A stretch of 64,000 nt of DNA, from NCBI RefSeq assembly GCF_032854445.1, contig NC_088305.1, forward strand, positions 24,647,400 to 24,711,399, given 5' to 3'. Below the pieces are notes generated by a model. The model did no database searches. It was not told the origin of the DNA and saw nothing but the letters and a program-made list of their open reading frames with translations. Position 1 is the first letter of the stretch. Every line of letters begins with the position of its first letter. This stretch comes from Liolophura sinensis. Lineage: Eukaryota > Mollusca > Polyplacophora > Chitonida > Chitonidae. Shown here piece after piece: positions 5,924-64,000 of this stretch. Both the position numbers and the translations under genes were made by a program.

Positions 5924-6138
5924 GATACAAGAAGTAGTGTATTGTTCCATTTTATAGAAACTGTTTATCCCAAACAACTGGACCAAGTTGATGGAGCCAT
6001 TGAGCTTGAGTGGAATGTTGAGAAGATGCTGAAGCAGTCTGCCGTGTTTTCTCATCAAAACACAGCTCTCCTCTCTATGGAGAATCATCTGCTGCCATCA
6101 CATGCCATTTTACACACCGTCTACTCAATATTCTCTCT
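5924..6138 (+). CDS. Candidate exon abutting the 47-bp array
   Basis: After an acceptor ending ATTCACAG, the phase-0 frame is open for about 70 codons: DTRSSVLFHFIETVYPKQ, then a charged segment (DQVDGAIELEWNVEKMLKQ) and a stretch ending LHTVYSIFSL. Phase matches the exon at 2158. The frame runs straight into the minisatellite at 6139 with no strong donor; the best GT is the weak CTCT|GTATAA at the array edge. The residues at the left edge (FSLYNA) recur at the right edge of the array (LYNAEDG, 9030), in a frame that a splice from 6139 to 9028 would restore. Family not recognised. Confidence 0.4.
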
Positions 6139-32069: not shown

Positions 32070-32325
32070 CTGAAGAGAAACCAAAACGTTCCATTCAAAA
32101 AATAATTATGCCACACATTTCTAGTATTTTCGTTTGACAGCATCAAGGTCTATAACTTATAAAATCTATATAACTGTAAGAATTTACGGGAGACTTTTCT
32201 CTTCTAAGGATAGCCTCTTATGAATTCAACCAAATGAATATGTAATGAGTACAGCTGTAAAAGCAGCATGAATGACAATTTTTCACAGATAGTGGTAACT
32301 GAGACTTATTTCACACTTATATTAG

Positions 32326-44372: not shown

Positions 44373-45095
44373 AAACAGCAAAAAACATAACATAACATTT
44401 AGATATGTGAATAAACTTGATTAGTTTTGTTGTCCGAAATCTAAAGAGTAATTATGTTCTTCTTAACACTGTATCCTCGAATTTTTGCCTTTTATGATCA
44501 AACATTAAACAATTCCACCTGGATCTGGAATAGCCATGTTATTTATTTGTTTGTTTGGTGGTTTTGTGGGGTTTAACGCTGTATAAAGATATTGGTGTAT
44601 GGATAGAAATCGGCGGTGGGTAATTGGAGGTGCACAGGTAAGGGTCGAGTGGTGGGTGTTCAGCTTTCGATGTCGGGTTTCATTTTGGGAACTGGGTTAT
44701 TTGCCATGATTTACCTGGAACGTCCTTTTTGGTTGGCGGCTGGTATACGAATGTCTGTTTCGACGCATAAGTTCACTGCAGGTTAACTTAGTTTATAGTT
44801 CGGCGGTACTATTTAGCAGTGTCCGGTACCACTACAGGGGTGGGCAAAACCACACCAGCCTTGACAACAGTGACCCTGAGAACAATGAAAGCAGGGGAAT
44901 GCAGAAAATTCCATGTCCGAATAAGGGAACGCAAAAAAGAATGATTAAAGGATAATGACTGATGAAACACCACACTGGCAGTATTTCATATCGTGGCGAG
45001 GACATGTTAGAACCGGGAAACAGCTGCATGTCTTTTATGAGAAGGATAACATCCAAAAGCAGAACAAACGGGTAACAGACCTTATACCGACCGAA
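43882..45095. other. Gene-free stretch with CA microsatellite
   Basis: Holds a (CA)n run at 44338-44370. At 44537-44600 ATTTGTTTGTTTGGTGGTTT and GGGTTTAACGCTGTATAAAG look like an old, minus-strand SINE tail. No gene seen. Confidence 0.45.
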
Positions 45096-45099
45096 ATAA

Positions 45100-45475
45100 A
45101 AAGACATTTCGGTCGCCTAATGGGCAAGAGCGTCCGCCTCGAATCAAACCCGTGTCGGGTCATACCAAGACTTTAAAAAGGGTGCTGCTTGCTGCCTTGT
45201 TTGGCACTCAACATGCACTGAGAGGTTAGAGCAAGGAAACATGACTCATTGGCCCGGTGTCAGTATAATGTGACTGGATCGAGTGTCATGTCTGGTGTCT
45301 TTGGCTTGATACTTTAGTGGTGGCAGAACTTTAGGGGTATGGACCCGTCCTAACACAAGTAAACACAATATATGTACACACACCTAATGATTCCTCGTCG
45401 TCTTATGACTGCCAAATTGTTCAGTACGAGGTCTGACCAGAAGCATACATACATATATACATATACATACATACT
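45100..45475 (+). mobile_element. SINE family C, near full length
   Basis: Head-like GGTCGCCTAATGGGCAAGAG and CGTCCGCCTCGAATCAAAC (degraded A and B boxes), AAGACTTTAAAAAGGGTGCT, GGCCCGGTGTCAGTATAATG, GAGTGTCATGTCTGGTGTCT, TACACACACCTAATGATTCC, then AATTGTTCAGTACGAGGTCT and an (ATAC)n tail. It shares its last 40 bases with family B. Confidence 0.75.
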
Positions 45476-45996
45476 GGCGCTATTGTTGGCCGCGAGCATT
45501 TCCTTTTACGTATTGTATTAATGATTAAGAGACTGCTTTTGCAAAATGTGTGCTGGATACCCACGGCTGATGTAAGATGTTTTTTTTATCTTAGTATGGG
45601 TGTTAGGTGGAAATTTATGTGCCATCCAATATGCAAAATGAGACGTAGTTATAAACCTTCAAACGCACATGTAAAAATGTTACTCATACTTCGCCGTCGT
45701 GACCTTTTCGCAAGGGTGTATATACTGACCCGCTTTAAAAACGCATCAATATGAACCCATGAACATGTCATGATAGTTTGAGAATAACGAAGGAAATATC
45801 CAAGTAAAATATAAGTAAGCTCCAAAGATATTGTCAGGTTTGATAGCGTTTGTGTGAGTCGGGAACAGGATTGAATAACACGTTTTTACTTCCGAAGAGC
45901 ATGAAAAATTCAAAGTGTCATTACTTGTGTGTGCAGAAATAGGGTATAAAGGGGAGGCAATCAAGGTTGTAGCAGCGGAATAGGACTTAGGACGCA

Positions 45997-46372
45997 ATGT
46001 CGCGAATGATACCTGAGGAACGGGAACGCGCAATTGCCTTGACTAAAGATGGTCTGACTACAAGGGCCGTAGAAGCAAGGCTTGGATGTCCCACAAGTAC
46101 CATCACAAGACTGAACCAGCGATTTTAGCAGACTAACACACCCTAGACAGGCAACGACCAGGGCAACCGCGTGCTACAACAGCAAGAGAAGACTGACGTA
46201 TTGCGAGGGCTCATCTGCCCGATCGAACACTTCCGGTGTCCAGAACAGCAGCTACCAATCGTAGGTCAACGAGAAGTTATCAGCGCTGATACTGTACGCT
46301 GGCGTCTTCGCGCCGATGGTTTACGTGCCTGTCGTGCAAACAGGGGTGGGCCTGTACCCGTTACTGACGTTT
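45997..46372 (+). pseudogene. Broken Tc1/mariner-type transposase
   Basis: The frame from ATG 45997 encodes a helix-turn-helix typical of Tc1-like transposases (PEERERAIALTKDGLTTRAV, then EARLGCPTSTITRL) and stops at TAG after about 43 codons. A second frame gives RPGQPRATTARED, the basic linker of this family, and a third gives ISADTVRWRLRADGLRACRA, the conserved end of the DNA-binding region. Stops and frameshifts separate them, and the DDE catalytic domain is absent. Possible inner ends (AAAAACGCATCA at 45738 facing TGGTGCGTTTTG at 46537) are weak. A non-functional remnant. Confidence 0.7.
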
Positions 46373-46599
46373 TCTTTGGACCACTTGTGTGTTCCATTTC
46401 CTCTACATTAAAACTGTGTACTTTCCAATGACACTTGTCATTACTAATGCGCAACTGACTTTTCTGAGTGTGAATATAGTATTCAGCCAACAGCAAACTA
46501 AATTTGGTTTAGCGTCAATTCCACTTTTTATCTCTGGTGCGTTTTGTATTCGATTCAGTATCCAAAGGTTATATAACTGTCACCCTTATACCATATAGT

Positions 46600-47396
46600 G
46601 GAGACTGATGTCGGTTTCTTTGTGCATGGTCATTAGAAAATACTATATCAGCGCCAACATTTAGGATGAGAAACGGCTTTCATGTTAAATGGGTGGAACG
46701 AGTTAAATATTTGAGTATAGAATTATTTACCGGCACGCAATATTATGAGGAGATAAAAACATCTCCCCTGCATGCATGATCAGCGAAGCGTATAGGGATT
46801 GTCAGTATATGCAAGACAAAACTGAATAAAAACAATACATATGTATACGACTACAGATTACATTTGAGTAACACAACAAAAGAGAAATTGGGAACATTGA
46901 AGTCAACATTTTGGTATTCTACATATTTCAGCGTAATTATATACACAACATAATACCAAAAGGGGGAATTAAAATAAAATGTGTTGAAAGGAGGAGTCCA
47001 CTGATTTAGAACATGTATTTCTTTGATCGCATTATAGTGTTAGACTTTTTCACTTGTCGGTGGAGGAAAGCGCGAAGATCATGTAGTATAGGACAGCTAT
47101 AGGCCTGTGCGGAACTCGCGTGACGGTGTAACACACAGCTTTTCATCATGTACGTGCCGAGCCCTACATGAGGAAGGTACAACTAAGTGATCTCCATGCA
47201 ACGTATTTCATTGCAGCATATGATATGAGGCACTAAGCAATGAAGGCCCGTGGCGCACATTCTGATGTAATAGACTGAAAAACTCTCCGGTCCCATCTCC
47301 AAAAACCTGTTGTCCCACCCAACGGCAAATTTATATGTGAGAAAAAAAGGGCGGGGCCACCGGGGTCAAGGGATTTACAACACGCCAGCTCTACAT
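46600..47396. other. Gene-free stretch
   Basis: Nothing beyond a small GGAGAT/ATCTCC hairpin near 46750. Confidence 0.4.
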
Positions 47397-47635
47397 AGTG
47401 ACTCAGGAACCTCTCGACCAGTGCGGTCGCCGTGAGTTCAAGTTCAGCTTATGCGGGCTTTCTCTCCGGTCGTACGTGGGAATGTCTTCCAGCAACCTGC
47501 GGATGGTAGTGGGTTTCCCCCGGGCCCTGAACGGTTTCCTCCCTCCATAATACTGGCCGCCGTCACATAAGTGAAATAGTCTTCAGTGCTGCGTATATAT
47601 ATCACCAATCAAATAAATAAATAAATAAATAAATG
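47397..47635 (+). mobile_element. SINE family A, near full length
   Basis: Starts at GTGACTCAGGAACCTCTCGA (head truncated), then GTCGCCGTGAGTTCAAGTTC (B box), CCGGTCGTACGTGGGAATGT, CATAATACTGGCCGCC, an interruption TATATATA before CACCAATC, and a (AAAT)n tail. Confidence 0.88.
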
Positions 47636-47639
47636 GTGG

Positions 47640-49060
47640 TGCTACAAGATAGGTCTATCCTCTCTCTATATATAGGCCTATATTGACAATCAGTTATGAT
47701 TTACATGTGTTACGTGACTAAAAAGCTAAAACTAAATCGTAATGCGACCCGCGTTATAACTTTTAGGAACTTTATTACCGAGTTTGCACGGCAACACGCG
47801 AACAGACGAGGTTAAAAACAAACCCTGGATTTGTGCTCATTGAATTTCGCCAAAATCTCCAGCATAGCTTCTTTAAGGATAATCCTATAGGGCTAATGCT
47901 GAATTGTGTTACGATTTCATTGAAATTTGATTAGGCCTATTATAGAACCCGCGATGTAGGCCTAGATGGATCTGCATGTTACGGGGGCCTAGCTGTTAGT
48001 GCCATTCGAAACTTATAACATTTTCTAATGATTTACCATGAAATGTACCCGCGATGTAAACGTTTTCTACCCGGTGTAAAACTTTGCACTGAAGTACAAA
48101 AGTTTTCTCCGCGGAGAAAACCGCGTTATAACGTTTGCCGTATCACGCCTATATGTCTATACGAAGAAAGACTCCTTTAAAGCACCTACACAGGCTATAG
48201 GCCTTTTAGTACCGTATATATGCTATGCCTTAGTAGACCTACTCGTTCTATATCAGACCTCCTTACGATTATTCAGTTCTATTAAATTTTGAGGGTTTTT
48301 TTTCTTCTGATAATTTACTTGATTTGATTTAACAATTTCTGATATTTACCAGCTCCACAGACCTTTAGGGCCTAGGCTAAATATCACAAATTGTTAAAAA
48401 TGGCCCCATAGTGTATTATTACCCGGTAGCTGTCCACGTGCTTTAAAAACGCATCAGTATGAGTCTAGCCTACATTTGTGTAGCACATAAGTAATAAGCG
48501 GTTTTTAAAAATATTTTTATGTCTGTAAATATTCTTTTCGTATTTTTATGAGTTTGTATGAAATTTGCGACGTGAAAAGCCATGGATCGGCGTTTCTCAT
48601 AGTAAATACGAAACTACGGCGGGCACTTGTTTATGGTTCGTTGTCCTCGTGAGAATTGGAATCAACTGACTTTTCATTCACTGGAAAGTTTGAAAGCAAC
48701 AACTTCTCTAACAGACAGTAGGTGTATCCTTCTACAGCAGCTGTGCCCGTCCGTCAAGCGAAAGGCGTTGTTACCAACATCGAAGACAATGAACGTTTAT
48801 ATAATTAACTTTCTTTGCTGACGGCTTCATAAAACAAACTGCACTTTAAGGGCATTGGGTGTCCAATTTCCGTACAGCAGGGCTTTCAAACATAAATGTT
48901 TGACGCGAAGTTGGTTTGGGTCTTTTAAGCTGAATCTGTTGTCACGCGGTAGAGTTTTGTCAGTTCATTGGAGAACCGCCTTTTCAAATTGAACATCTGA
49001 GAAGGGACGCCGCGACTAACAATAAGCATCAACCAAGCAAGCCTTTACACTACAACAGCC
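47640..49060. other. Gene-free stretch
   Basis: Contains repeated short phrases (CCGCGTTATAAC, CCCGCGATGTA) between 47740 and 48130 that may come from one local duplication. No gene supported. Confidence 0.4.
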
Positions 49061-49062
49061 GA

Positions 49063-49092
49063 TTTTACATTAATCATACGATTAATGTAAAA
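49063..49092. repeat. Perfect 13-bp-arm hairpin
   Basis: TTTTACATTAATC, a loop of ATAC, then the exact reverse complement GATTAATGTAAAA. No T run follows that would make it a pol III terminator. Confidence 0.85.
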
Positions 49093-49101
49093 ATTGACAT
49101 G

Positions 49102-49117
49102 TACAAGTATACTTGTA
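49102..49117. repeat. 16-bp perfect palindrome
   Basis: TACAAGTATACTTGTA, ten bases after the hairpin at 49063. Confidence 0.85.
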
Positions 49118-49467
49118 AAACAGTCCACATTTGTCCATACAGGGCAACACACCCATAGTTTTAGGAAGAAGGTACTTCCTATTTTATATGCTGTGTGAGA
49201 TAGGGACAAAGATATTTAAAGTGAAATGCAGATACTGGAATCTGCTTTTCCTGAACAAATGTTAGGTGACGACACCGTTAAATATTAACTGGGCCTCAGT
49301 TTCAGAACACATATTAACCAGTGGAAGGTATTAAAAGTTCATGTTTTTGTATTAAAACAATGAAATAATAAACTGTTGGCCAGCTCCTGATGAATGAGAC
49401 CCCAAAGTGGAAATTTTGCCAGTGGTTCAGTTGAGATTTGTCCTGTTCCCCCACCCTCCACCTCTAG

Positions 49468-49508
49468 CTCTCTGCTTAACTCAAGAAAGCAGAGATTTAA
49501 GCAGAGAG
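49468..49508. repeat. Perfect 12-bp-arm hairpin
   Basis: CTCTCTGCTTAA at 49468-49479 pairs with TTAAGCAGAGAG at 49497-49508 around a 17-base loop that itself repeats AAGCAGAGA. Confidence 0.85.
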
Positions 49509-49787
49509 ACTTTAAAAATGAAAAATTGCTTGTAGATTGAGTAGCTGAATAAGACTTTTGATTTTATTTTGAAAACATATTTCTTGCGTTCTAGATTTTA
49601 TTTTGTTCATATTATTTCCAGTCAAATCTGTAGCTCGAATTTAGGTAAGGCTACACATTGTGGAGATAGGAGTGCACTGATATGGACATGGGTCTTCTAA
49701 TTTCAGATATCAACAAATTTGCTTTCATCCAGATCTTGGTTTATACTAACATAACTCAACAATGAAAGGCTCAAAGTAATTGTTCAG

Positions 49788-49924
49788 GCTGGCTTCCTCT
49801 CCAGCTGTACATGGGAAGGTCTGCCAGCAACCTTTGTATGGTCTGCCCAGTTTCCTCCCACCATCATGCTGGCCGCCGTCGTACAAGTGAAATATGGCGT
49901 AAAACACCGATCAGATAAATAAGT
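49788..49924 (+). mobile_element. SINE family A, shortened copy
   Basis: From CTGGCTTCCTCTCCAGCTGT; the middle lacks the GTGGGTTTCCCCCGGGC piece; GTGAAATATGGCGTAAAACA lacks the usual ATTCTTGAGTAC. The same shortened 3' end appears at 55375, so this is a sub-family deletion. Confidence 0.8.
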
Positions 49925-49992
49925 AAATCAAAGTAATCGTGAAACAGCGAATATATACAACATATATAACACCACCAGAAATTAAGATTAAC

Positions 49993-50230
49993 TTCCTTCG
50001 TGGCTCAGTTGGTAAACGCGCCAGCGTAATGACCCAGGAGCCTCTCACTAATGCAGTCGCTGTGAGTTCAAGTCCTCTCTTGCCGTAAGTAGGAAGGTCT
50101 GGCAGCAACCTACAGATGGTCGTGGGTTTCCCCCGGGCTCTGCTCGGTTTCCACTCACCATAATGCTGGCTGCCGTCATATAAGTGAAATATTCTTGAGT
50201 ACGGTGTAAAACACAAATCAAATAAACAAA
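49993..50230 (+). mobile_element. SINE family A, near full length
   Basis: Head CTTCGTGGCTCAGTTGGTAA (A box), GCCAGCGTAATGACCCAGGA, GCAGTCGCTGTGAGTTCAAG (B box), a short deletion before CTCTTGCCGTAAGTAG, full body and a CAAATCAAATAAA tail. Confidence 0.9.
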
Positions 50231-50484
50231 ATAAAGATTAATCTAATTGCGTTCAAAGACAGTAGCATGGACAAAAACACGTGCATCTCTTTGTATTCCT
50301 TATATACATGTATAAACTATCATGTGAAACAACGTGTTAATTTAGGGCGCCTCACCTGTGCTTTTTGAAAAAAAAAACCATTTCATTCCATTAAACAGCT
50401 AAGAAATGCAGCCGGTATAAACCGTAAACTTTGGATGATTAATTAGACAATGTTCTTGTCAGAATTTTCCAAAAATGAGGGTAA

Positions 50485-50735
50485 GGTGGCGAGGGGGTAG
50501 CATGCCAGCATGGCGCAATGACCCAGGAGCCTCTCGGGAATGTTGTCGCTGTGAGTTCAAGTCCAGCTCATGTTGGCGTCCTCTCCGGCCATACATGAGA
50601 AGGTCTTCCAGCAATCTGTGGATGGTTGTGAGTTTCCCCAGGCTCTGTTCGATTTCATCCCACCATAATGACGGCTGCCGTCGTATAAGTGAAATATTCT
50701 TGAGTACAGCGTAAAAAAAAAACAATCAAATATAT
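50485..50735 (+). mobile_element. SINE family A, full length, upstream of ferroportin
   Basis: All blocks from the head (GGTGGCGAGGGGGTAGCATG, diverged) through GTCGCTGTGAGTTCAAGTCC to GTGAAATATTCTTGAGTACA and an A run. It lies about 180 bp before the ferroportin ATG, so inside the likely promoter or 5' UTR. Confidence 0.88.
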
Positions 50736-50912
50736 AGATAACATTTTTTTATATAACAGAGCCCTGACACTCTCATATTTGCTTGAGGGGTTAACAGATG
50801 AACTGACTAGGACATGGGAAATTTGGATAGATACCTTTGACTGGATCACTGAATGATAGAGGGTGCCTACATGTATGTGTAGAACTGAACAGAAGGGAAA
50901 TAATCAGTCAAG

Positions 50913-50961
50913 ATGGCAGATGATGGTGAAGTTGAAGTATGCCCCCCAGCTACCAAGAAAG
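50913..50961 (+). CDS. SLC40A1: Ferroportin exon 1
   Basis: Encodes the acidic N-terminus [16 protein letters not shown] and one base of codon 17. Donor AAAG|GTATGT. The ATG is the first in a strong context after the upstream SINE. A non-coding upstream exon cannot be excluded. Confidence 0.8.
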
Positions 50962-53900
50962 GTATGTGAGAACATTTTTGGATACTTTTTCACTTTTTTT
51001 TTCTTTTATTAGAAAGCAAATTTTTATTCTTTTTTTGGAGACATTTGTTGGAGACATTAAAGTACATGATTGAAAACTATCTGCAATACTTTACTCTTTC
51101 CTCAGATACACCCATATTATAAATGAATCTTATGTCCCTTTCACAAAAATTTATATCCGGATCTAATTTGAACCGGTTTATATCAAAGTCAGTTTAAAAA
51201 TGCGTGCCTTCACACGATCATGTGACCAGGCCGGTTTTAAGCCAGTTCAGGCATTTGTTCCATCACAAGGTCACATTTTGGCTGGAGTAGTAATTGCAAC
51301 GTCATCCTAACATTGTAACCGGTAGCACAGTTGGTAGAGCGTCCACTTCAGTAGGCAGTAGATCCAGGGTCAATCCTGGGTCGAGTCACACTTAAGACTT
51401 TAAAAGAGGAAGTTGTAACTTCCTCGCTTGGCGTTCAGCATGAAGGGGATAGTGCAATGACTAGTTAACCTGAGTTAGTATAATGGCCCGGGCGGGGCGA
51501 CACTTGCCTTCGAAAATGCCTCTCAGTGAAGCAGCACTAGATAAAAGAGCGGTGGAAATCCACCTTGCAAACGAGGTACATTACATGCACTCGAGCGATT
51601 CCTTCATCGTCATGTGACTAAAAAATTGTATAGTATGACGTTAAACCCCATGCACTCACTCTTAACTTCGTATCCGCGACATTTACCATTCACACAACAC
51701 AGATAAACCAGCTCAAGACATGAAACTGGCTAAGAACAAAAATGTTATAAAAAGCCAAGTTAGGAGTATGTAAGACTTAATTTTTCTCCTCCTTGGAACC
51801 CAAACATGTACATGTACATGGTTTTGAACTGAAATGGTTTAACACACAGGTGAAGAACTTGACAGACAAACCATGTCAACTTTTCAAGAAGTGTCTTTTT
51901 GTTATAAAATTAATGCTAATAGGAGCAATTAGCACATGTCATGTACCTCAATAAATTATGCCTGTTCAGACCTACATATAAATGACCTGTGGAATGTGTC
52001 AGTCTGTACATATCAGTTGCAGCGGTATGCCAAACCGTGGGCATACTTGAGTGTACTGACCACAAAAGAATAGATATGCTTTTAAAGGAGAAGAAAACCT
52101 AAAAACATGACACTATTGACTGAAAAGAGCACATTTTTTCTATCTGATGGTGCCTGCTGCATAATTTTGCCATTTTCCTTGCCATACATGTAAAGCCTGA
52201 AAACGGCAAACCTGGCATAAATCACTTAGTCCATCGTGTCCTCCATCTTTAACACCCTGTAATTTATGCTGGGGTTGTGTTGCCTCTCAGCCATTGAGAG
52301 TCGCTAAAACTGCTGGCTTGTTCGTGTAAACGGAACTTAAGTCCAACATTCCGGTTTCCCGATTGTCAAGCGGAAAATGAACTGTACCGTTCGCTACCCT
52401 CTGGGAAGAAGAGTTCTACCGGAAATGTATGAACTGCACTTCGGTAGTTTCCGACGGCAAATCTCCTCCTAACACAGAAGACTTCAGGACTAGTTCTTAG
52501 GCAAAATGGAGTCGCCCACAGCGGATTTTGGTGCTGACTTTATTTATAATTTATCAACTTTAGGTACAGATTAGAATGTTTTTCATGGCATGAACCTGCA
52601 AGGAAACGCATACTCTTTTCAATGGTATTTGATTGATATTTAAATTTTCTTCTCCTTTAACAAATGAGACATACCTTAACTCCTCAACATTTTTGCATAT
52701 GAAAAAAGCAACTTTCAACGACAGATCTGTTTTTGATAATTTTTTCTACAGAGAGATGTTCTCAGTGGATGAATACTCCAGCTTTCTCAGTGTATGTGAT
52801 GAAAGCTCTTTCATCATGGGTAAGTACTGTAACTGATTAGTATTTGTTTATTGATTGGATAGGTGTTTTATGATGTATTTAAGAATATTTCACTCATACA
52901 ACCACCAGCTGAGTTATTATACAGGTTATTTCTTGGAATAACGTCATTGACATTGACATTAATTTCTTATTCCAAAGTGTTTTTCTCGTGGAGTGAGCTG
53001 GTACTTGTAGAAGGTTCAGTTCTCATCATATTGATTGATGCAATTGGAAGAGAATAGGTATTAGAGTGCCCGTTATTTTTTGTTCCATCTACTAATTAAA
53101 CTAGGTGCTATTTGGGGGCCTCCTTGGCTCAGTCGGTTGGCGCGCTAGTGCAGCGTAATGACCCAGGAGCCTCTCACCAATGTGGTCGCTGTGAGTTCAA
53201 GTCCATCTCATGCTGGCTTCCTCTCCGGCCGTAAGTGGGAAGGTCTGCCTGCAACCTACGGATGGTCGTGGGTTTCCCCCAGGCTGTGCCTGGTTTCCAC
53301 CCACCATAATGCTGGCCGCCGTCGTATAAGTGAAATATTCTTGAGTACGGCGTAAAACACCAATCAAAAAAAAAAAAAAAAAAAAAAGGTGCTATTTGAT
53401 GCCCAGGTGAAGAAATTTTCTTTTTTTGTGAGGACGGTCATTTTTATGGGTGACGGAAACCTTTATGGCGCCTGTGGTATAAAACCTGTGCGCTTTGGCA
53501 AGTTACCGACTTTCCTGGACACAAAGACACAGTTTTCCTGCAGTGCAAGCTGCAAGCTGGTCTCCAACTAACATTAAACTGCTCACACATTAATTCTTAC
53601 TAAGGCTCGATGTTTGTTGAAAAAAACAAAACATGCTGAAGTTGTTTTACCCCTTGGTCCTGAAGCTCCAGCGTGCTCCTCCCAAAACCCCCATTATATG
53701 TATTTTGTGTTCATATGATTTTGAAAGAAAGCTATAAAGCAACCAGCATTATAAATTTTACAAGCCTTATGACTGATTTTGAACAGTAAAACATGCCCAG
53801 GGGAAGTTGATATTTTATGAAAGCTAATTATTTGGGCTATTTCAAAACATCAGGTGGTGGTGGTGGTGGTGGTGGGGGGGCTTCGTGGTTCAGTTGGTTA

Positions 53901-56900
53901 GCGTGCCCAGAAGCCTCTCACCAATGCTGTCGCTGTGAGTTCAAGTCCAGCTCATACTGGGTTCCTCTCTGGGAAGGTCTGCCAGCAACCTGCGGATGGT
54001 CGTGGGTTTCCCCAGGGCTCTGCCCGGTTTCCTCCCACCATAATGCTGGCTGCCGTCGTATAAGTGAAATATTCTTGAGTACGGCATAAAACATCAATCA
54101 AATAAATAAATCAAATCGAAACATCCGAAAAAATTTGATTGGATTTGGGCTCATCAAATTTTTTGTCAAAAATCTCTGCGTGACATAATCTCTTTAAGTT
54201 TGAAATTATCCACCCCTCTGACGGTCAGTCCTTATCTCTGTTCAGGGTGACCGCATGTGGATGTTTGCCGTAGGACTGTATCTGGTCAAACTGTCCAACG
54301 TGACCCTGACACTGACAGCTATTTATGGCCTAACAGGTGGGGTGTGTGTCATCCTGCTGGGTGCCCTTGTGGGGGATTGGGTGGACCGCAACCCAAGACT
54401 TAAAGGTGGGTAACTGTTACAAGCGGTTATCGTTCTTAACATGGTTCATTTCATGCTAAACAAGGCCAACATTTACTCAAAATTTGTTTGGTGTTTAAGT
54501 ATATGTAATTTTGCAGTATTCAAGAAAATTTTACTTACTTGAGAGAGGCCAGGTTGATTTGTGGAGGAAATCAGAGTGCTTGGAGCATTAAAGGTGGAGA
54601 AAGCATACACACTACATCAAGTTCAGATGAAAGAGTCCAGAAATATAGTTGTAAATGTGGTCTTCAATATTTGTTTTGCTTTTTCTTTGAAAGGAAAAAG
54701 GCACTTGAAAATAATTTTTGTATGGTGGGTATTTGGGGCAACATTTTGGTATTTGTAGTCTTTGTGTAATAATGTTATAAATGATGATTTAATACATGAT
54801 TAATAAATACAGTTGCACTAGAATTCAGTCTTCTCAGCCAAAAAATGTGTTAAACCTTGATTTGGATCATATCTATATTATTAACATATACATAAATATT
54901 ATCATAATTCAGATTAAACGCATATGTTTGGATATAAACAAAAAATTCACATTTGAATTTATTTATTAGACATGAAACACATCCTTATTTAGAACATTAT
55001 AATACAAAGATAATAAAAACAAAAAGGTGATCCCAAATACCCACGACACAAAAACATTTTCGAATACCCTTTCTTCCTGGAAAAAAAAAGATGAAAAAAA
55101 AATTTGAAAAACCAAATTTGCAAATAAGTTCTGGCTTTTTCATCTGATTTTGGCATCATTTTTATGTTTTCTTCTCCTTTAAACAAGTATGTATATCTTA
55201 CAAACCTCCTAACTTAAAGTGGTCTTCCAGCAACCTGCAGATGGTCATGGGTTTCCGCAGGGTTCTGCCTGGTTTCCTCCCACTATAATGCTGGCCGCCG
55301 TCGTATGAGTGAAATATTCTTGAGTACGGTTTAAAACACCAATCAAATAATAAAATAAATCCTAACTTAAAGTAGTCTGCCAGCAACCTGCAGATGGTCG
55401 TGGGTTTCCCCCGGGTTCTGCCCAGTTTCCTCCCACTATAATGCTGGCCGTCGTCGTATAAGTGAAATATGGCGTAAAACACCAATCAAATAAATAAATA
55501 AATAGAAAATCGTTGTTGTGTATTGCTTATTTGCTGGGCCAGGTTGGTGATCTTCTTCTTCCCGCCTCCATACAGTGGCACGGACTTCCCTGGTCATCCA
55601 GAACACAGCGGTCATCGTGTGTGCGGTCATCCTATGTGTTGTGCTGACCTACTACCAGAAGATACTGACCATCTGGCCCATCCACCTAGCTAACATCTGC
55701 TCTGCGCTGATCATCGCTGCAGCCGTCGTGTCTAAACTGGCCAGCATTGCCACTAAGATCGCCGTGGAGAAGGATTGGGTTGTGGTGATGGCAGCAGGCA
55801 ACAAGGATAGGCTATCAAGTAAGCCAGCAGATGGTTGTTATAAACCCTCTCTGAAGTGTGAAGACTGGTGGTATAGGATGTGTTGTGTTCTGTCTTTTTG
55901 TCTGTTCATCTGTCGCTCTGTGCTGTCTCTCTGTCCATCTGTATTTTCAGGTGTCTGTTTGTCGATCTGTATGTCAGTCCATCTGTCTGACTTCGCTCTC
56001 TGTTCGTCCATCTGTCTGCTTGTGCTGTCTATCTCTCTATGTTGTCTGCCCATTGATCTGCTTGTGCTGTCTACCCCTGTGTCAGTTTGTGCTGTCTTTC
56101 TGGCCATCAGTCTGCACATCTGTGTTAATCTATCAGTCTTTTTGTCTGTGCTGTCTGCCCATTTGTCAGCTTGTGTTGTCTGTCTGTCTGTTCATGCTGT
56201 CTGCCCATTTGTCTGTTAATTTTTGCTGATTGTCTATCCACACTGTCTACCAATTTGTCTGCTTGTGCTGTCTTTCTGTCCATGCTGTCTGCCCATCTAT
56301 CTGTCCATCTGTCTTGTCTTTACATCTGTCTCTGTCCATTTGTCTGTCTGTGCTGTCTCTCTTTTCATCTGTCGTTTTGTGGTGTGTGTCTGTCCATCTA
56401 CCTGACTGTGCTGTCAGTCCATCTATCTGACTGTGCCAGCTGTCCATCTACCTGACTGTGCTGTCTGTCCATCTATCAGACTATGCTGTCTGTCCATCTG
56501 TCTGTCTGTGATTTCTCTGTCTTTTTGTCTGTTTGTGCTGTTTGTCCAATGGTATATTAATTTGTTGATCTGTATCTCTGACCATCTGTCGGACTATGCT
56601 GTTTGTTCATCTGTCTGACTGTGTTGTCTCTCTGTCCATCTATCTGACTGTGCTGTTTTTCTGTTCATCTATCTGACTGTTGTCTGTCTGACCATCTGTC
56701 TGACTGTACTGTTTGTCCATTTAGCTGACTGTGTTGTCTGCCAGCCTGTCTGTCTCTGCTGTCTGTCCATCTGTCACTGGTGCCAACAAGCACCAATTCA
56801 CAATAATGCTCACCTGCTTCTCAGTTTTAATCTCTAGGGGATAAAATGAGTTTAAATCTAAAGCTTGATCAGTTACCATTGTTCAGTTTAACACTTAATA

Positions 56901-59900
56901 AGCTGGACATGAAGACTCAGAGCAGCTATATGTAAGAAGTGGGGAGGGAGAACAATGGTGTGTATGGTATGATATAAGTTGGATTAAATATGATGTAATT
57001 GGATTAAATATGATGTGCCAGTGCGGTCGCTGTGAGTTCAAGACCAGCTCATGCTGGCTTCCTCTCCGGACGTACATGGGAAGGTCTGCCAGCAACCTGC
57101 AGATGGTCGTGGGTTTCCCCCGGGCTGTGCCCGGTTTCCACCCACCATAATGCTGGCCGCCGTCGAATAAGTGAAATATTCTTGAGTACGTCGTAAAACA
57201 CCAATCAAAAAAAAAATAAATAAAATATGATGTGACATAAGCTGTTTATATGCCTCCGCCATGATAAAGAGCGTATTATGTTATAGCAGTTTTGTTCGTC
57301 TGTTTTGTATGGAGAGTTTCCACCTGTTACTAAATAAATCTTCTCCCCTTTTCTCTCTTCAGCCATGAATGCGTCCATGCGCCGCATCGACCTGCTGTGT
57401 AACATCCTGGCACCTGCGCTCGTGGGTCAGGTCATGACCTTTGCGTCCATGGTGATGGGTGCTGTGGTTATCGCCGGTTGGAATCTTGTCTCTGTTTTCG
57501 CGGAGTATTACTTACTGTGGAAAATATACAAGGCAGTCCCCAACCTGGCCATCAAGAAAGTCAAGGGTAAACTGCTAGCACAATACTGTATTTCACTTTT
57601 TTTTTTTTTTTTTCTTTAGCTTTTTTTCAGGTGGCAAATTTAGCTTCTTTTTTTTTAGGATTCATCCACCTAATAGGGTACTGTAAAGTTTTCTTATGTC
57701 AAGTTTGGGATTTCCCAACGGGGTCTGCTCTTTTTCCTCCCACCATAATGATGGCCGGTATCGTGAAATATTCTTGAGTGTGGCATAAAACACCAATCAA
57801 ACAAAATGAGTGTGAAGTTTGATTAATTTCTTGTCGGAAAAGAACATGGTGGCACCCGAAGTCTCATTTAAGAAGCCTTTGTGTCTTTCTGAATGTGTAT
57901 TTTTTACATGCCAAACTCTAAATGAAATACAGTAATATTTGTATAGGTAAGATTAAAAAATACAGAGAAGTGAAATAAAATGAAGTAATAAAGTAATATT
58001 CATATAGAATATAGATGTTAGCATTTCACCAGACATCAAGTCTCACTCGGTTACAACATATAGATGTTAGCATTTCACCAGACATCAAGTCTCACTCGGT
58101 TACAACATATAGATGTTAGCATTTCACCAGGCATCAAGTCTCACTCGGTTACAGCATATAGATGTTAGCATTTCACCAGGCATCAAGTCTCACTCGGTTA
58201 CAACATATAGATGTTAGCATTTCACCAGACATCAAGTCTCACTCGGTTACAACATATAGATGTTAGCATTTCACCAGACATCAAGTCTCACTCGGTTACA
58301 ACATATAGATGTTAGCATTTCATCAGGCATCAAGTCTCACTCGGTTACAACATATAGATGTTAGCATTTCACCAGGCATCAAGTCTCACTCGGTTACAAC
58401 ATATAGATGTTAGCATTTCACCAGGCATCAAGTCTCACTCAGTTACAACATATAGATGTTAGCATTTCACCAGGCATCAAGTCTCACTCGGTTACAACAT
58501 ATAGATGTTAGCATTTCACCAGACATCAAGTCTCACTCGGTTACAACATATAGATGTTAGCATTTCACCAGCCATCAAGTGTCACTCGGTTACAACATAT
58601 AGGTGTTAGCATTTCACCAGGCATCAAGTCTCACTCGGTTTCAACATATAGATGTTAGCATTTCACCAGGCATCAAGTCTCACTCGGTTACAACATATAG
58701 ATGTTAGCATTTCACCAGACATCAAGTCTCACTCAGTTTCAACATATAGATGTTAGCTGTGAGACTTACAGCTGGTATGAAGCTCTGTCAAGACACTATA
58801 CTAGCAGCAGTCGGAACACTACATCTAGTTCTTTATCCCGTTTTACTGAGTGACAAGCCAGTTAAGTACCAGGTTAGAACTTCAAAATTTTGAATTGATT
58901 TGATTTTATTGTTGTTCAGTGCCATAATCAAGAAAATTTCTCTGATACTCAGGTGGTCAGAGAACAGGAGAGCCCGCAGTGAATTACCTACCTTAGTTAC
59001 CTGCATGTGATGTACAATGTACTGATGTCCTTATATTGTTGGAAAACAAGTGGTATTCTTTGAACATTAGACTGCACAAACAGCCACACTGCACCAACTT
59101 TAAAATGAGAAAAATTTATTTATTTATTTATTTATTTATTTGATTGGTGTTTTATGCCTTACTCAAGGATATTTCACTTATAAAATAAAAAGGAATAAAT
59201 AGGAAACCCGGGCAGAGCCCGGGGGAAACCCACAACCATACGCAGGTTGCTGACAGACCTTGCCACTTACGGCCTGAGAGGGAGCCAGTATGAGCTGGAC
59301 TTGAACTCACAATGACCACATTGGTGAGAGACTCCTGGGCCATTACGCTGTGATAGCGCACTAACCAACTGAGCCACGGAGGCCCCTGAGAAAAATAGAA
59401 GTTGCCTGTACCTTCCAGCCAGGATGCAGATGTTGACATAAAAAGTCTGTTATCCATGTATAAATTTTACACAAATACAGTTATTTTTAGCATTGGTATT
59501 TGCAGGTAGAACAGTAGTTAAAAAAAATTCTGAAAAAATTCAGTTCTCTCCAGGTTTGCCAGAGGACAAGACCAAAGCCAAAGATGTACCATCTCCATCT
59601 GATACAGAGACAGGGGAAGCAGAACGTCTTGTGGAGGAAGGTGCCATGGATGGGAAGAAGGTTGGGGAGACAGAGAGCACCCCTCAGAATGGGGTGAAGG
59701 CACCCCAGAAGAAGAGTGTGGCAGAGCTTGTGTTTGGCCGGTTTATCACCCTGTACAAGGGTTGGAGCGTGTACCTCCGTCAGAAGGTTCTGCCTGCCGG
59801 GATAGCCTTCTCCTGTGAATTCCTGACCATCCTGGCATTCGACAGTATTACATCAGGTCAGTAACAATTTGTGGGCTTGATAAACAGATTCAGCGTAAGA

Positions 59901-62900
59901 TAACAAATTGGGGGCTTGATAGACAGATTCAGCCACAGATAACAAGTTGTGGGCTTCATAGAAAGATTCAGCCACAGATAACAATTTGTGGGCTTGATAG
60001 AAAGATTCAGCCACAGATAACAATTTGTGAGCTTGATAAACAGATTCAGCCACAGATAACAAGTTGTGGGCTTGATGGATGATGGACAGATTCAGCCACA
60101 GATAACAATTTGTGAGCTTGATGGACAGATTCGGCTACAGATAACAATTTGTGGGCTTGATAGAAAGATTCAGCCACAGATAACAATTTGTGGGCTTGAT
60201 AGACAGATTCAGCCATGTATAACAATTTGTGGGCTTGATGGAAAGATTCAGCCACAGATAACAATTTGTGGGCTTGATAAACAGATTCAGCCACAGATAA
60301 CAAGTTGTGGGCTTGATGGATGATAGACAGATTCAGCCACAGATAACAATTTGTGAGCTTGATGGACAGATTCAGTCACAGATAACAATTTGTGGGCTTG
60401 ATATACAGATTCAGCCACAGATAACAATTTGTGGGCTTGATAAACAGATTCAGCCACATATAACAATTTGTGAGCTTGATAGATTCAGCCACAGATAACA
60501 ATTTGTGGGCTTGATAGACAGATTCAGCCACAGATAACAATTTGTGGGCTTGATAGACAGATTCAGCATAAGATAACTATTTGTGAGCTTGATAGACAGA
60601 TTCAGCCACAGATAACAATTTGTGGGCTTGATAGAAAGATTCAGCCACAGATAACAATTTGTGGGCTTGATGGATAATACACAGATTCAGCCACAGAGGA
60701 GCCTCTCACTAATGCAGTTGCTGTGAGTTTAAATCCAGCTCATGTTGCCTTCTTCTCCGGCCCTACTGGGGAAGGTCTCAGCAACCACCGGATGCACATG
60801 AAAGAGGTGGCTTTTAGTGGGAAATTTTTTTTCTTATTTGCAATTTTTTGTATGGAGTTTAGATGAGTATTCTTGGTTACTTAGTCTCAGTTTTAGGCCT
60901 CTGTGGCCTCTCAACCATGCAGTTGCTGTGAATCCAAGTTCAGCTCATCCTAGCTTCCTCTCAGATTGTACTTTAGAAGATTAATGCTTGCCGCTATCGT
61001 GTAAGTGAAATATTCTTGAGTACGACATAAAACATCAGTCAAATAAATAAATAGTCTAAGTGCTGTATCAGAGCGACATTCATTAGAAGCCTGCAAGTGC
61101 TGGTATCTACTTTTCTTTCACTTAACAGGCATAGCGAAGATTGATCAAACTAAAGACGAATAAACTCCCACTTTGTTTTATACCCACCAAGCCTTAGCAC
61201 CAGAGTTTGTATGTATTTAAACCATAATTTACCTTCCCTGCTGTTAAAAAATTCAGCTGGCCCGTCAGGTTTTCTTAGCACAACTCACATCAGCCTGGCA
61301 AAGATTTAACTTCATTATTACCACTACCTGCAGTATATGATTCAATGTTGAATATTTTTTTTGCTGGAATCATTTTTCGTGGTAAATTATTGACTGCGAA
61401 ATCCGCGAAAATTAGTTCCATGCTCAAGAGCCATTCACTCTGTGGTGATGGTCAGGTGTATGAGTGGAGAAAACTGGAGTATCGGGTATAAACCACTGCC
61501 CTGTTCCAGATAAGACACACCTTATGACTTTATTCTCCAGCTGACTGCTGGATTAGAGCACACCCAACTTCTTTTGTCGAAGGCTGGAAATTCATAGTTA
61601 TCCTGGGCCTAAGTCACAAAACATGAATGGAGGCTTTCATGACCAAGTGGTTAGCACAATGACCCAGGAGATTCTCACTAATGCTGGGGGTCCACCTCAT
61701 GCGGGCTTCTCTCCTGTCATACGTGGGAAGGTGTGGGTTGTGGGTTTGCAGGAGCCCGGTTTCTTCTCGCAATAATACTGGTCGTACTAAGTGAAATTTT
61801 CTTGAATATGGTGTAAACCTCCAATCCAATAAATAAATCAAACAATATTAAAACATGAATGTTTTCAATCCCAGCCTTGGAGAGGTAAATGTCAAAATTC
61901 TGCTGCCTTCTCTGTTTTGGGGACTGTGGTGACTCGAAATGGTCAACATCACACGTTGGACCATTTAAGCCTTCTTACATAAAGTTGTGGAGTTTTTCAG
62001 CAGATGGCCAGCGTGAAATATTGTTGAGTAAATAAAGTATAAATAAAGCGTAGAGATTGATTGAGTCAGCAAAATAAAGTCACTGCATAAAAGTCACTCT
62101 GTAAAACTTAAACTGGGATAAACTGACAGTTTATGTGGGATTATTTTCCAATTAACGTCCTCTGATCACTGCTCCGGTTAAACTCTCCTTCTTCTCCACA
62201 AGTCCCATGACTCACTATGTCAATCAGTCAGTCAATTATTCAGTCAGACACTTATGTCTCTAACTGTTTCAGGATTTGCCTACTCTCAAGGTCTTGCCGA
62301 GTACGTCATTGGCTTGTTGATGGCTGCCGGAGCAATCACAGGGATCGCCGGGACTTTCGTGTTCCCAGTTCTAAGACAGCGTATCGGTCTGGAAAGGACA
62401 GGACTGGTGGCGTTTGTGGTGTTCATCTCTTGTCTGACTCTCTGTATTGCTTCCATATGGGCACCAGGAAGTCCTTTTGATCCAGCTTTCTCAAAAAGGC
62501 AGAATGCAGGCTCATTCAACACTAACTGCACAGGTGGACGAATGTCTGTTAATCTATCGTCAGTTATAGGTCTTGAAACAAGGGGAGGTAACTCTAGTGG
62601 TGACGTGAACAGAAGATTGGTGAGAAGAGAGGCTTCCCTGGCTAATACTATGCAGTATTTTGAGCACTTTTCAAATGATTTGGCATTTGATGTGGATGAA
62701 ACAGTTTTCCTTTTTCAGCCAGGTATTTTGCGGGAATTATTTTCCATGGACACGTCAGATAATTTCGATTTGGTGTTGCTAGGAGATCAAGGCCACAGCG
62801 CGGAGAAAAAACTAATTGTCAGTCGTCGGATTAGGGCTGTGACCAATGGGACATCAGATAGTGTGGGTTATGCTTCAAATTACGGTAACGAGACTTTGGG

Positions 62901-63324
62901 GAACTGCTCTGAGAATACGCCAGCACAGTCTCACTCCTTCATCTCCATAAGCCTTCTCATGGCAGGAATCGTTAGTGCTAGATTCGGACTGTGGCTGTCG
63001 GATTTGACCATAACACAAGTGTTCCAGGAGAATGTCGCAGAAACTGAACGAGGGGTTGTCGGCGGGGTTCAGAGTTCACTGAACATGCTCATGGATGTCA
63101 TCCGCTATGCCATGGTTGTCATAGCACCCGACCCGGAAACTTACGGAATCCTTATCATCATATCTTTCCTGTCTATTTGTACAGGGGCGTGTTTCTTTGC
63201 TTACTATGTCAAAAAGAAACAGGGCTACTTTTGTGTAGAAAGCTGCCCATGCTCTGGGACCCAAACAGAAAGTGTTAACAGAAAAGAAAGTCCTGCAGAA
63301 AATGCTCCTGTTACTGAGCTTTAG
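50913..63324 (+). CDS. SLC40A1: Ferroportin-type iron exporter (SLC40A1 family), 7 exons
   Basis: Seven exons (50913-50961, 52752-52819, 54246-54405, 55576-55818, 57363-57566, 59554-59856, 62273-63324) join in frame to 692 residues; all introns are GT-AG. Ferroportin exports Fe(II) across the plasma membrane as a two-lobed major-facilitator-type carrier. Recognisable landmarks: [12 protein letters not shown] in TM1 (residue 37 onward), [45 protein letters not shown] (337-350), [10 protein letters not shown] and APDPETYG. The start ATG has A at -3 and G at +4. The cytoplasmic loop 242-308 is polar; the loop 408-561 is far longer than in vertebrates and holds six N-glycosylation sequons. Of the vertebrate metal ligands D39, H43, C326 and H507 only D39 (here D41) is kept; the others are M45, S339 and R620. 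The tail contains CVESCPC. I saw no iron-responsive element just upstream. Confidence 0.93.
51315..51662 (+). mobile_element. SINE family B, full length, in ferroportin intron 1
   Basis: Head GGTAGCACAGTTGGTAGAGC (A box), a T arm that still pairs (CCAGG GTCAATC CTGG), AAAAGAGGAAGTTGTAACTT, GGCCCGGGCGGGGCGACACT, GTGAAGCAGCACTAGATAAA, and the 3' end TATGACGTTAAACCCCATGC plus ACTCACTC. The least diverged family B copy in the window. Confidence 0.9.
52752..52819 (+). CDS. SLC40A1: Ferroportin exon 2 (small)
   Basis: 68 bases between TTTTTCTACAG and TGG|GTAAGT. Its frame, [20 protein letters not shown] and SW, runs into GDRMW of exon 3 exactly as in vertebrate TM1. A longer open frame over the same bases ([13 protein letters not shown]) is a shadow. 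Confidence 0.88.
53115..53386 (+). mobile_element. SINE family A, full length, target duplication intact
   Basis: A 272-bp reference copy in ferroportin intron 2. Head GGGCCTCCTTGGCTCAGTCG, B box GTGAGTTCAAGTCC, complete body and a pure A tail of about 22. It is flanked by the 12-bp direct repeat AGGTGCTATTTG (53103-53114 and 53387-53398). Recent insertion by LINE-type retrotransposition. Confidence 0.97.
53878..54115 (+). mobile_element. SINE family A after a TGG/G run
   Basis: Preceded by (GGT)n and a G run (53853-53880). Head GCTTCGTGGTTCAGTTGGTT; lacks the GCGCTAG...GTAATGACC part and the GGCCGTA part; body and CAATCAAATAAATAAATC tail complete. Ferroportin intron 2, 130 bp before exon 3. 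Confidence 0.9.
54246..54405 (+). CDS. SLC40A1: Ferroportin exon 3
   Basis: Acceptor ATCTCTGTTCAG, donor AAAG|GTGGGT. Residues 40-92: the rest of TM1, TM2 ([20 protein letters not shown]) and the [11 protein letters not shown] loop, one of the most conserved parts of the family. Y66 (vertebrate Y64) is kept. Confidence 0.95.
55206..55505 (+). mobile_element. Two SINE family A 3' halves in tandem
   Basis: Copies at 55219-55360 and 55375-55505, each preceded by CCTAACTTAAAGT (55206-55218, 55361-55373). The first keeps GTGAAATATTCTTGAGTACG; the second has the shortened GTGAAATATGGCG form. The shared flank suggests either a second insertion reusing the site or a tandem duplication followed by change. 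Ferroportin intron 3. Confidence 0.85.
55576..55818 (+). CDS. SLC40A1: Ferroportin exon 4
   Basis: Acceptor CTCCATACAG; donor TCAA|GTAAGC. Residues 93-173: [20 protein letters not shown] (TM3), a helix around [15 protein letters not shown] (TM4) and [20 protein letters not shown]. The asparagine known as N144 in vertebrates is lysine here. Confidence 0.95.
55894..56775. repeat. CTGT-rich degenerate repeat
   Basis: A long degenerate array of CTGT, CCATCTGTCTG and ACTGTGCTGTCTG motifs with a loose period near 24 bp, in ferroportin intron 4. Cysteine- and leucine-rich open frames in all plus frames are artefacts of it. Confidence 0.9.
57018..57222 (+). mobile_element. SINE family A, 5'-truncated, target duplication intact
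   Basis: Starts inside the SINE just before GGTCGCTGTGAGTTCAAGAC, with full 3' body and an A-rich tail. Flanked by AAATATGATGTG (57006-57017 and 57223-57234). Lies 140 bp before exon 5 of ferroportin. The truncation shows incomplete reverse transcription. Confidence 0.95.
57363..57566 (+). CDS. SLC40A1: Ferroportin exon 5
   Basis: Acceptor TTCTCTCTTCAG; donor AAGG|GTAAAC. Residues 174-241: [20 protein letters not shown] (TM5 start; RRID kept), [27 protein letters not shown] (TM6). Confidence 0.95.
57707..57804 (+). mobile_element. SINE family A, 3' fragment
   Basis: GGGATTTCCCAACGGGGTCT, CCCACCATAATGATGGCCGG and GTGAAATATTCTTGAGTGTG, then CAATCAAACAAAAT. Ferroportin intron 5. Confidence 0.75.
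58008..58757. repeat. 49-bp minisatellite
   Basis: About 15 near-identical units of CATATAGATGTTAGCATTTC plus ACCAGGCATCAAGTCTCACT plus CGGTTACAA. The main variation is AGACATC versus AGGCATC. Ferroportin intron 5. Confidence 0.95.
59116..59386 (-). mobile_element. SINE family A, full length, minus, target duplication intact
   Basis: A 271-bp copy flanked by TGAGAAAAAT (59106-59115 and 59387-59396). Carries the (ATTT)n tail type rather than pure A, and ends with the head complement CTGAGCCACGGAGGCCCC. A small AT-rich replacement (AAATAAAAAGGAATAAATAG) has taken the place of the usual CGACGG...ATAATG part. Ferroportin intron 5, 165 bp before exon 6. Confidence 0.96.
59554..59856 (+). CDS. SLC40A1: Ferroportin exon 6
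   Basis: Acceptor TTCTCTCCAG; donor ATCAG|GTCAGT. Residues 242-342: a polar, acidic cytoplasmic linker rich in E, K and T (likely disordered), then [20 protein letters not shown] and TM7 ending [10 protein letters not shown]339 stands where vertebrates have the hepcidin-binding cysteine. Confidence 0.93.
59862..60695. repeat. 39-bp minisatellite starting at a splice donor
   Basis: About 21 units of GATAACAATTTGTGGGCTTG plus ATAGACAGATTCAGCCACA. The first unit begins within a few bases of the exon 6 donor (GTCAGTAACAATTTGTGGGC). As 39 is a multiple of three, both strands show long repetitive open frames that are not genes. Confidence 0.95.
60696..61053 (+). mobile_element. Two SINE family A remnants
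   Basis: 60696-60795 has GAGGAGCCTCTCACTAATGC and the B-box region but breaks off after CAGCAACCACCGGATG. 60895-61053 has GGCCTCTGTGGCCTCTC, a B box, then jumps to TGCTTGCCGCTATCGTGTAA and a CAGTCAAATAAATAAAT tail. Ferroportin intron 6. Confidence 0.75.
61629..61843 (+). mobile_element. SINE family A, diverged copy
   Basis: Head GAGGCTTTCATGACCAAGTG with GTTAGCACAATGACCCAGGA, body CTCTCCTGTCATACGTGGGA, GCAATAATACTGG, GTGAAATTTTCTTGAATATG and CCAATCCAATAAATAAATC. Ferroportin intron 6. Confidence 0.8.
62273..63324 (+). CDS. SLC40A1: Ferroportin exon 7 (terminal)
   Basis: Acceptor CTAACTGTTTCAG; stop TAG 63322-63324. Residues 343-692: GFAYSQGL (Y346 = vertebrate Y333), TM8-TM9 to [12 protein letters not shown], a long outer loop (408-561) with six sequons and a dibasic RRLVRRE, TM10 ([20 protein letters not shown]), [18 protein letters not shown]11 ([21 protein letters not shown]614 and R620 replace Y501 and H507), TM12 and a tail with CVESCPC. 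Confidence 0.95.
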
Positions 63325-64000
63325 CTTATTTGCAGCTTTGTTTTACAGATCTTGAAATGTGTTACAAACCATGATCATATATATGTACTTGAACAAGTGT
63401 AGCAAACTGTGTGTACTCTTTTGCTAAATGTAACATATAGTGTGAAAAAGCCAAACAAAGCATATCTGCACCAAGTGGAGATAACCACGTTTTTAGAAAC
63501 GTTGGGCAGGTTGAAATCTACTTAAATAATTAGAGCACCTTTTGGAGTGGAAACCCAGTGTTCTACATGTTATTTTTGTACTTTATATGAAATTACCAGA
63601 GATCTATACATTATGTCATGACAGATATGAGGTTTTATATTGGTGTTTTATAGGACGAGCTTCTTAATTTTAGGACGGCTTCATAGCCCCATTACAGTTT
63701 TTTGGGATCTTCAGTTTTATATTTACATGTATCAACAAGTTTACTACATTACAGTTTTGACCATTTCCTATTTGAAGATGGGTCCTCATGTTATTTGCAT
63801 TCTGTCCCAGATTTGTTTTTTTGTTATGGACAGTTTAATTGAAATCTGTTTTAACTGTGTCAATTTTCCTTATCGATGGTGTTATATTTTTCTTCTAGAG
63901 GTTATGGTAAAGTACTAACCGTACATTTTGACATTTTAAATATTTATTGGAAGGATAAATGATATGTGTGATGGTGTCTCCCTATTCAAGGATCATATCT
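63325..64000 (+). other. Ferroportin 3' UTR and flank
   Basis: AT-rich sequence following the stop codon. No AATAAA was found before the window end; the variant signal used or a more distant site is not identifiable. No other gene seen. Confidence 0.5.

Follow-up and report, generated by a model that had tools for sequence, protein, structure and literature searches.

A chiton ferroportin without H43, C326 and H507, residues absent from all four ferroportin loci found in the Liolophura sinensis genome

When a ferroportin carries neither of the histidines nor the cysteine that serve as iron ligands in the human protein, has the gene lost them, and does it still export iron? The question is raised by a locus in a stretch of 64,000 nucleotides from the chiton Liolophura sinensis (NCBI RefSeq assembly GCF_032854445.1, contig NC_088305.1, positions 24,647,400 to 24,711,399 of the forward strand), hereafter the window. 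A preliminary description, made from the letters of the window, had read the locus as a ferroportin that had lost three of four iron ligands and the hepcidin cysteine, and had suggested that it might bind metal differently or carry another substrate. We found an intact ferroportin gene at positions 50913-63324 of the forward strand, with seven coding exons and a product of 708 amino acids. H43, C326 and H507 are each kept in 0/4 of the ferroportin loci found in the chiton genome, and from the sequences compared these residues look like vertebrate-side features, not like something that this gene has lost. With a probability of about 0.72, we read the window copy as an intact, hepcidin-independent metal exporter that would work on the ancestral N-lobe site, with iron as its first substrate.

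The gene was modelled from open frames, splice signals and homology, without transcripts. Its start and end coincide with the coordinates of the preliminary description. The parts of the model are listed below in window coordinates, with transmembrane helices abbreviated TM and S1 denoting the N-lobe metal site; residues elsewhere in the text carry human numbers unless they are said to be those of the model.

50913..50961, forward strand: coding exon 1 (start codon, N-terminus); open frame, donor G^GTATGTG, phase fitting exon 2
52752..52819, forward strand: coding exon 2 (start of TM1); GT-AG borders, aligns with exon 2 of the three other copies
54246..54405, forward strand: coding exon 3 (GDRMWMF; TM1-TM2, motif A); GT-AG borders, alignment to human and bacterial ferroportin
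54249..54251, forward strand: codon D41, human D39 (kept; S1 and calcium site), by alignment
54261..54263, forward strand: codon M45, human H43, by alignment
55576..55818, forward strand: coding exon 4 (TM3-TM4; Q99 and D157 kept); gene model and alignment
57363..57566, forward strand: coding exon 5 (TM5-TM6; N174, R178, D181, N212 and E219 kept); gene model and alignment
59506..59856, forward strand: coding exon 6 (cytosolic loop, TM7a to FDSITS); gene model, possible alternative acceptor 48 bases downstream
59817..59819, forward strand: codon E346, human L317, in TM7a, by alignment
59844..59846, forward strand: codon S355, human C326, by alignment
62273..63324, forward strand: coding exon 7 (TM7b-TM12, stop); gene model and match to primate proteins in PDB
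63085..63087, forward strand: codon M630, human Y501, by alignment of exon 7 to primate ferroportins
63103..63105, forward strand: codon R636, human H507, by alignment of exon 7 to primate ferroportins

All six introns have GT-AG borders and the sole stop is the final codon; given the intact frame and splice sites, a pseudogene was rejected. The protein scores 451 bits against the Pfam family FPN1 (PF06963; cut-off 24.6), in a match that spans positions 4-430 of the 430 in the profile, and is 44.5% identical to human ferroportin over 474 aligned positions. By itself, exon 7 gives matches to four distinct ferroportin sequences of primates in PDB (E 2.5e-47 to 5.2e-47). Within it, TM11 aligns without a gap to the primate segment SMNYLLDLLHFIMV, and the match is ungapped through TM10-TM11, which rules out a misaligned TM11. 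Motif A of the major facilitator superfamily (G80, D84, R88), as described for ferroportin in PMC12594662, is identical in the window copy, as is D157. The TM9-TM10 insertion, named as a metazoan feature in PMC11890741, is present as well, with about 150 residues from P429 to S580 of the model. By eye, six N-glycosylation motifs were counted in the modelled loop (window positions 62482-62937), which is extracellular and longer than in the two other chiton copies aligned. The seven coding exons differ from the eight-exon organisation given as usual for animal ferroportins (PMC5665920); an intron at ARFG|LW occurs in the three other chiton copies and is absent from exon 7 of the window copy.

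The alignment places D, M, S, M and R at human positions 39, 43, 326, 501 and 507, corresponding to D41, M45, S355, M630 and R636 of the model. GDRMWMF stands against GDRMWHF, with M at H43, and FDSITSG against FDCITTG, with S at C326. These states agree with every residue call of the preliminary description, and its count of three changed ligands out of four is right for the human set D39/H43/C326/H507. Its numbers for the later residues (S339, M614, R620) name the correct residues and lie each exactly 16 below ours, an offset that an alternative exon-6 acceptor, 48 bases further downstream, could account for. Judged from the sequence, neither acceptor is to be preferred; the choice affects no key residue.

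In terms of sites, S1 (D39 and H43) is half present in the window copy, with the aspartate kept and methionine in place of the histidine, and the C-lobe site S2 (C326 and H507) is absent, its positions being occupied by S355 and R636. The hepcidin thiol of C326 is likewise missing, with serine in the window copy and asparagine in the three other chiton copies. Neither histidine proposed as a proton carrier is present. The calcium site, D39/Q99/N212/E219, is complete (4/4), and N100 is also identical to the human residue. D157, R178, D181, D325, R466, R489 and D504 are kept too. Thus, compared with vertebrate SLC40A1 (human and tarsier; PDB 6w4s and 6vyh), the window copy shares motif A, these seven residues, the calcium site with N100, and F324 and Y333 of the hepcidin-contact loop; it differs by H43M, C326S, Y501M, H507R and L317E and in its TM9-TM10 loop of about 150 residues.

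A search of the genome with PF06963 gave 23 matches, which resolve into four loci, all on one chromosome, that of the window: the window copy and copies at about 27.69, 27.73 and 30.52 Mb. The starts of two of the loci, which share a strand, are separated by about 36 kb, and a further locus is found on the opposite strand at a distance of about 5.8 Mb from the window. All four were modelled, with exon 1 located in the window copy only. Taken in the order window, 27.69, 27.73 and 30.52 Mb, the copies have M, L, Q and S at position 43; S, N, N and N at position 326; M, Q, Q and M at position 501; and R, K, K and K, basic in all four, at position 507. The three other loci are therefore like the window copy in lacking H43, C326 and H507 and in having a basic residue at 507, and unlike it in that asparagine stands at 326, lysine at 507, and L317 is kept. 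The preliminary description had proposed looking for another copy with H43 and H507, and none of the four loci has them. A change of function in the window copy alone was rejected for the ligand positions, which are in the non-vertebrate state in all four copies. Three of the four copies, that of the window among them, have the whole calcium site; the exception is the copy at 27.69 Mb, through D39A.

To ask whether the residues were lost, we used a bacterial outgroup of 39 aligned rows, 33 of them distinct and mostly from one phylum. A ferroportin match was found in 5/5 of the bacterial genomes first reached and in 29/290 genomes of the phylum of the first one. The bacterial rows have D at position 43 in 38/39 (one gap), G at 326 in 39/39, and L or I at 507 in 39/39; Q99, N212, E219 and R466 are present in 39/39, with one gap at position 39. 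C326 and H507 thus occur in 0/33 distinct bacterial homologues, and H43 in 0/32 readable there. The Bdellovibrio protein BbFpn (PDB 5aym) and the 33 distinct homologues accordingly share with the window copy the calcium site (save for that gap) and R466, together with the absence of H43, C326 and H507. They differ from it, besides positions 43, 326 and 507, in having H at 325 and T (once N) at 504, and the B. bacteriovorus protein is reported to be without the animal TM9-TM10 insertion (PMC11890741). Because the bacteria are very distant (about 20-27% identity) and mostly of one phylum, they polarise the change of residues only weakly. Searches elsewhere gave no relative: two scans of the viral collection returned 2 and 6 pattern stretches, and a scan of the genome collection with the chiton alignment returned 35, none of them a relative.

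The literature agrees for the C-lobe site. C326 is reported to appear first in cartilaginous fish, with another residue in invertebrates (PMC8235187), and S2 is described as "confined to mammalian transporters" (PMC10030120). In the literature searched, figures and supplements lying outside the search, we found no published statement on H43 or H507 in invertebrates. The claim that this gene had lost both histidines therefore did not hold as a change of this gene, given that none of the four chiton loci and none of the readable bacterial rows keeps them. The preliminary description had itself named a lineage norm as the outcome that would count against a shift in function; half of this was found, in that all four chiton copies have the non-vertebrate state, with only one mollusc genome compared.

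The best surviving alternative is that there was a true loss: the animal ancestor would have had H43 and H507, vertebrates would have kept both, and the chiton lineage would have replaced them, 507 by K or R, before its copies split. A basic residue at 507 is common to the four copies, so that one change would suffice, and the copies may form one clade. In our tree the four group together with support 63/66, and the three without the window copy with 91/96; this topology would allow the window copy to have split off either before or after the vertebrate split. Against a true loss stand the bacterial outgroup, in which neither histidine occurs, though at great distance, and the documented vertebrate gain of C326 (PMC8235187). 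On balance we regard it as unlikely, while ranking it ahead of the other alternatives.

What would a ferroportin with these residues do? In the human protein, C326S/F/Y and H507R are reported to leave iron efflux unreduced and to block down-regulation by hepcidin, and D39A is reported to abolish efflux (PMC8232785); H507R is a nonclassical, hepcidin-resistant disease variant in patients (PMC7934381). Two of these substitutions, C326S and H507R, are those of the window copy, in which D39 is unchanged. The calcium site, which the window copy has in full, is described as strictly conserved in the ferroportin family and needed for activity, D39E and E219D abolishing iron efflux (PMC6079014). The hepcidin independence proposed earlier is thus supported, and it is also expected, C326 being reported only from cartilaginous fish on (PMC8235187).

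Based on these data, the following mechanism may be proposed. The window copy, a member of SLC40 with the major facilitator fold, would most likely export a divalent metal, iron first, by alternating access. Transport would use the N-lobe site that surrounds D39 and is read as ancestral, together with the conserved calcium site formed by D39, Q99, N212 and E219. As there is no vertebrate-type C-lobe S2 site, hepcidin control of the vertebrate style would not be expected, H43, C326 and H507 having probably been gained on the vertebrate side. Proton coupling, if present, could run through other titratable residues (D39, D325 and D504 are all kept), and the basic residue at 507 may act as a fixed charge. 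Iron is the likely substrate on this evidence.

Several points weigh against this account. The family search of the genome ran exon by exon, so its counts are lower bounds and a further divergent copy is possible. Support for uniting the four chiton copies (63/66) is not firm, the lineage norm rests on one mollusc genome and the statement of a review on C326, and, of the four, the window copy has diverged furthest. The human mutants tested differ from the combination of M43, S326 and R507. Moreover, in liposome studies metal transport is said to be affected more strongly by S2 mutations (PMC12594662, introduction), an S1 double mutant is reported to have a cobalt rate only slightly lower (PMC7655804), and D39A to have a modest effect on iron (PMC9883014). 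These results would predict weak transport by the window copy.

The divergence of the window copy was quantified over alignment columns in which human ferroportin and the three other chiton copies do not vary, where it departs at 30/157, many of the 30 being conservative; the same count is 3/130 for the 27.73 Mb copy, 17/144 for the 30.52 Mb copy and 12/139 for the 27.69 Mb copy. The outlier among the 30 is L317E (E346 of the model), which lies eight residues ahead of D325 in TM7a. The human leucine recurs in the three other chiton copies and in 95% or more of the 33 distinct bacterial homologues. Helix spacing suggests that E346 could face the cavity or pair with R636. Thirty-five human positions are conserved in 95% or more of the bacterial proteins; 29 of them are present in the window copy, and 29, 29 and 30 in the others. 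In the three comparisons that involve the window copy, the proportion of nonsynonymous differences (pN) is 0.39-0.41 and that of synonymous differences (pS) 0.76-0.82, synonymous divergence being saturated.

A metal exporter with its preference moved off iron, towards cobalt, nickel, manganese or a softer ion, is a second alternative; it would rest on methionine for His43 beside D39 and on the missing C-lobe site. M45 and M630 indeed sit at human ligand or neighbour positions, and E346 is unique to the window copy. A precedent is FpnA of Aspergillus fumigatus, a non-vertebrate ferroportin homologue like the window copy, which is reported to act on nickel, cobalt and gallium with no role in iron homeostasis (PMC11890741). 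By that published description, FpnA differs in being vacuolar and in lacking the TM9-TM10 insertion. However, position 43 varies as M, L, Q and S among the four copies, as expected of an unconstrained site; human C326S and H507R are reported to keep iron export (PMC8232785); and the Bdellovibrio homologue, with D at 43, is reported to transport iron as well as cobalt, nickel and manganese in vitro (PMC11890741). The different substrate put forward earlier is possible, yet nothing seen favours it, with the calcium site, motif A, D325, R466 and D504 all kept, and we judge such a shift improbable.

A bolder extension, to which we give slightly less credence still, would make the chiton ferroportins a class of their own, exporting iron at high flux for the building of magnetite teeth and working without either of the proposed proton histidines. 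Lysine or arginine would provide a fixed positive charge at 507, where vertebrate H507 is proposed to take up a proton, acidic residues would carry any coupling, and E346 of the window copy would either be a partner of R636 or contribute to a new C-lobe site. Finally, that the window copy is decaying or does not transport is very improbable: its divergence, the L317E change within a helix and the damaged copy at 27.69 Mb speak for decay, and against it stand the frame without internal stop or break, the 6/6 canonical introns, the retained calcium site, motif A, R466 and R489, and nonsynonymous differences that are low relative to saturated synonymous ones.

The copy at 27.69 Mb (C11:27688000-27697500, where C11 is the contig that carries all four loci) has alanine at human D39 (GARMWLF) in exon 3, at locus positions 2330-2489; every other readable row keeps D39. 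In its exon 7 (locus positions 6132-6613), a 5-base tandem duplication of TTCAC breaks the frame. This copy is likely a pseudogene or a null allele. The ratio of nonsynonymous to synonymous substitution rates (dN/dS) between the 27.73 and 27.69 Mb copies is 0.16 with a dS of 1.69, the only measurable pair, the others being saturated; any decay of the 27.69 Mb copy is therefore probably recent. An assembly error behind the frame break is possible and is not the obvious cause; coverage of the chiton assembly with HiFi reads is given as 14-fold (PMC11068029).

An iron-responsive element was also sought. Rfam gave no match up to E 1 in window positions 45000-64000, in which the exons of the 5' untranslated region are unmapped. 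None was among the 18 weak Rfam matches at the three other loci; all 18 are at the 27.69 Mb locus, below gathering scores, and 17 of them fall in one stretch, 1587-2112 of that locus. A hairpin pattern for the element had no match in the window or in the three other ferroportin loci.

Other features of the window were recorded in passing. Intron 6 of the ferroportin gene (from 59857) begins with a 39-base minisatellite of about 20 copies (59862-60671), and the 5' splice site lies five bases before it. A 47-base minisatellite of about 58 copies extends over 2.7 kb (6317-9025) and overlaps a stretch of strong negative GC (guanine-cytosine) skew (-0.34 at 4001-8000). On the reverse strand, positions 29202-32105 hold an open frame of 968 amino acids with the Pfam domains QRICH1 and DUF3504, which may be a single-exon gene or a domesticated element. 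A reverse transcriptase fragment (RVT_1; 21312-21692) scores 27.3 bits, just below the cut-off of 29.6. A dispersed short element occurs in both orientations at many places in the window and in the three other ferroportin loci (for example 53149-53355, forward, and 59152-59466, reverse); common to its translations are "...ISEIFLSTA" and, for the opposite strand, "...HYGG.KPG.A...". Elsewhere in the genome, the first 10 kb of a contig of 15,209 bases read as mitochondrial with genetic code 5; the genes recognised there run nad1-nad6-cob-nad4L-nad4-nad5, with atp6-cox2 on the opposite strand, an arrangement shared by many molluscs, chitons among them.

The iron content of the circulating fluid is reported to be higher in chitons than in any other animal studied, and chitons are also reported to cap their teeth with magnetite (PMC7850002), so that the way they export iron has an interest of its own. 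Two papers on chiton genomes (PMC7850002, PMC11068029) do not use the word ferroportin in their main texts, and its count is zero for the Cryptochiton radula paper (PMC6351634) and the Acanthochiton genome paper (PMC11545220). The apparent loss in the window copy is probably the ordinary state, and the impression of a loss came from reading human ligand positions into an invertebrate ferroportin. Two views of the transport cycle bear on what follows. In one, H43 and H507 are the proposed carriers of two protons and S2 is prominent (PMC9883014); in the other, S1 leads and S2 is regulatory, both views being set out in the introduction of PMC12594662. If the two-histidine model is general, chiton and bacterial ferroportins should be poor transporters or differently coupled. 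Since the Bdellovibrio protein is reported to carry metals and has none of H43, C326 and H507, the chiton proteins are a natural test of that model and not evidence for a new substrate. A chiton ferroportin that lacks S2 and has neither of the histidines tests both models of the roles of S1 and S2 directly.

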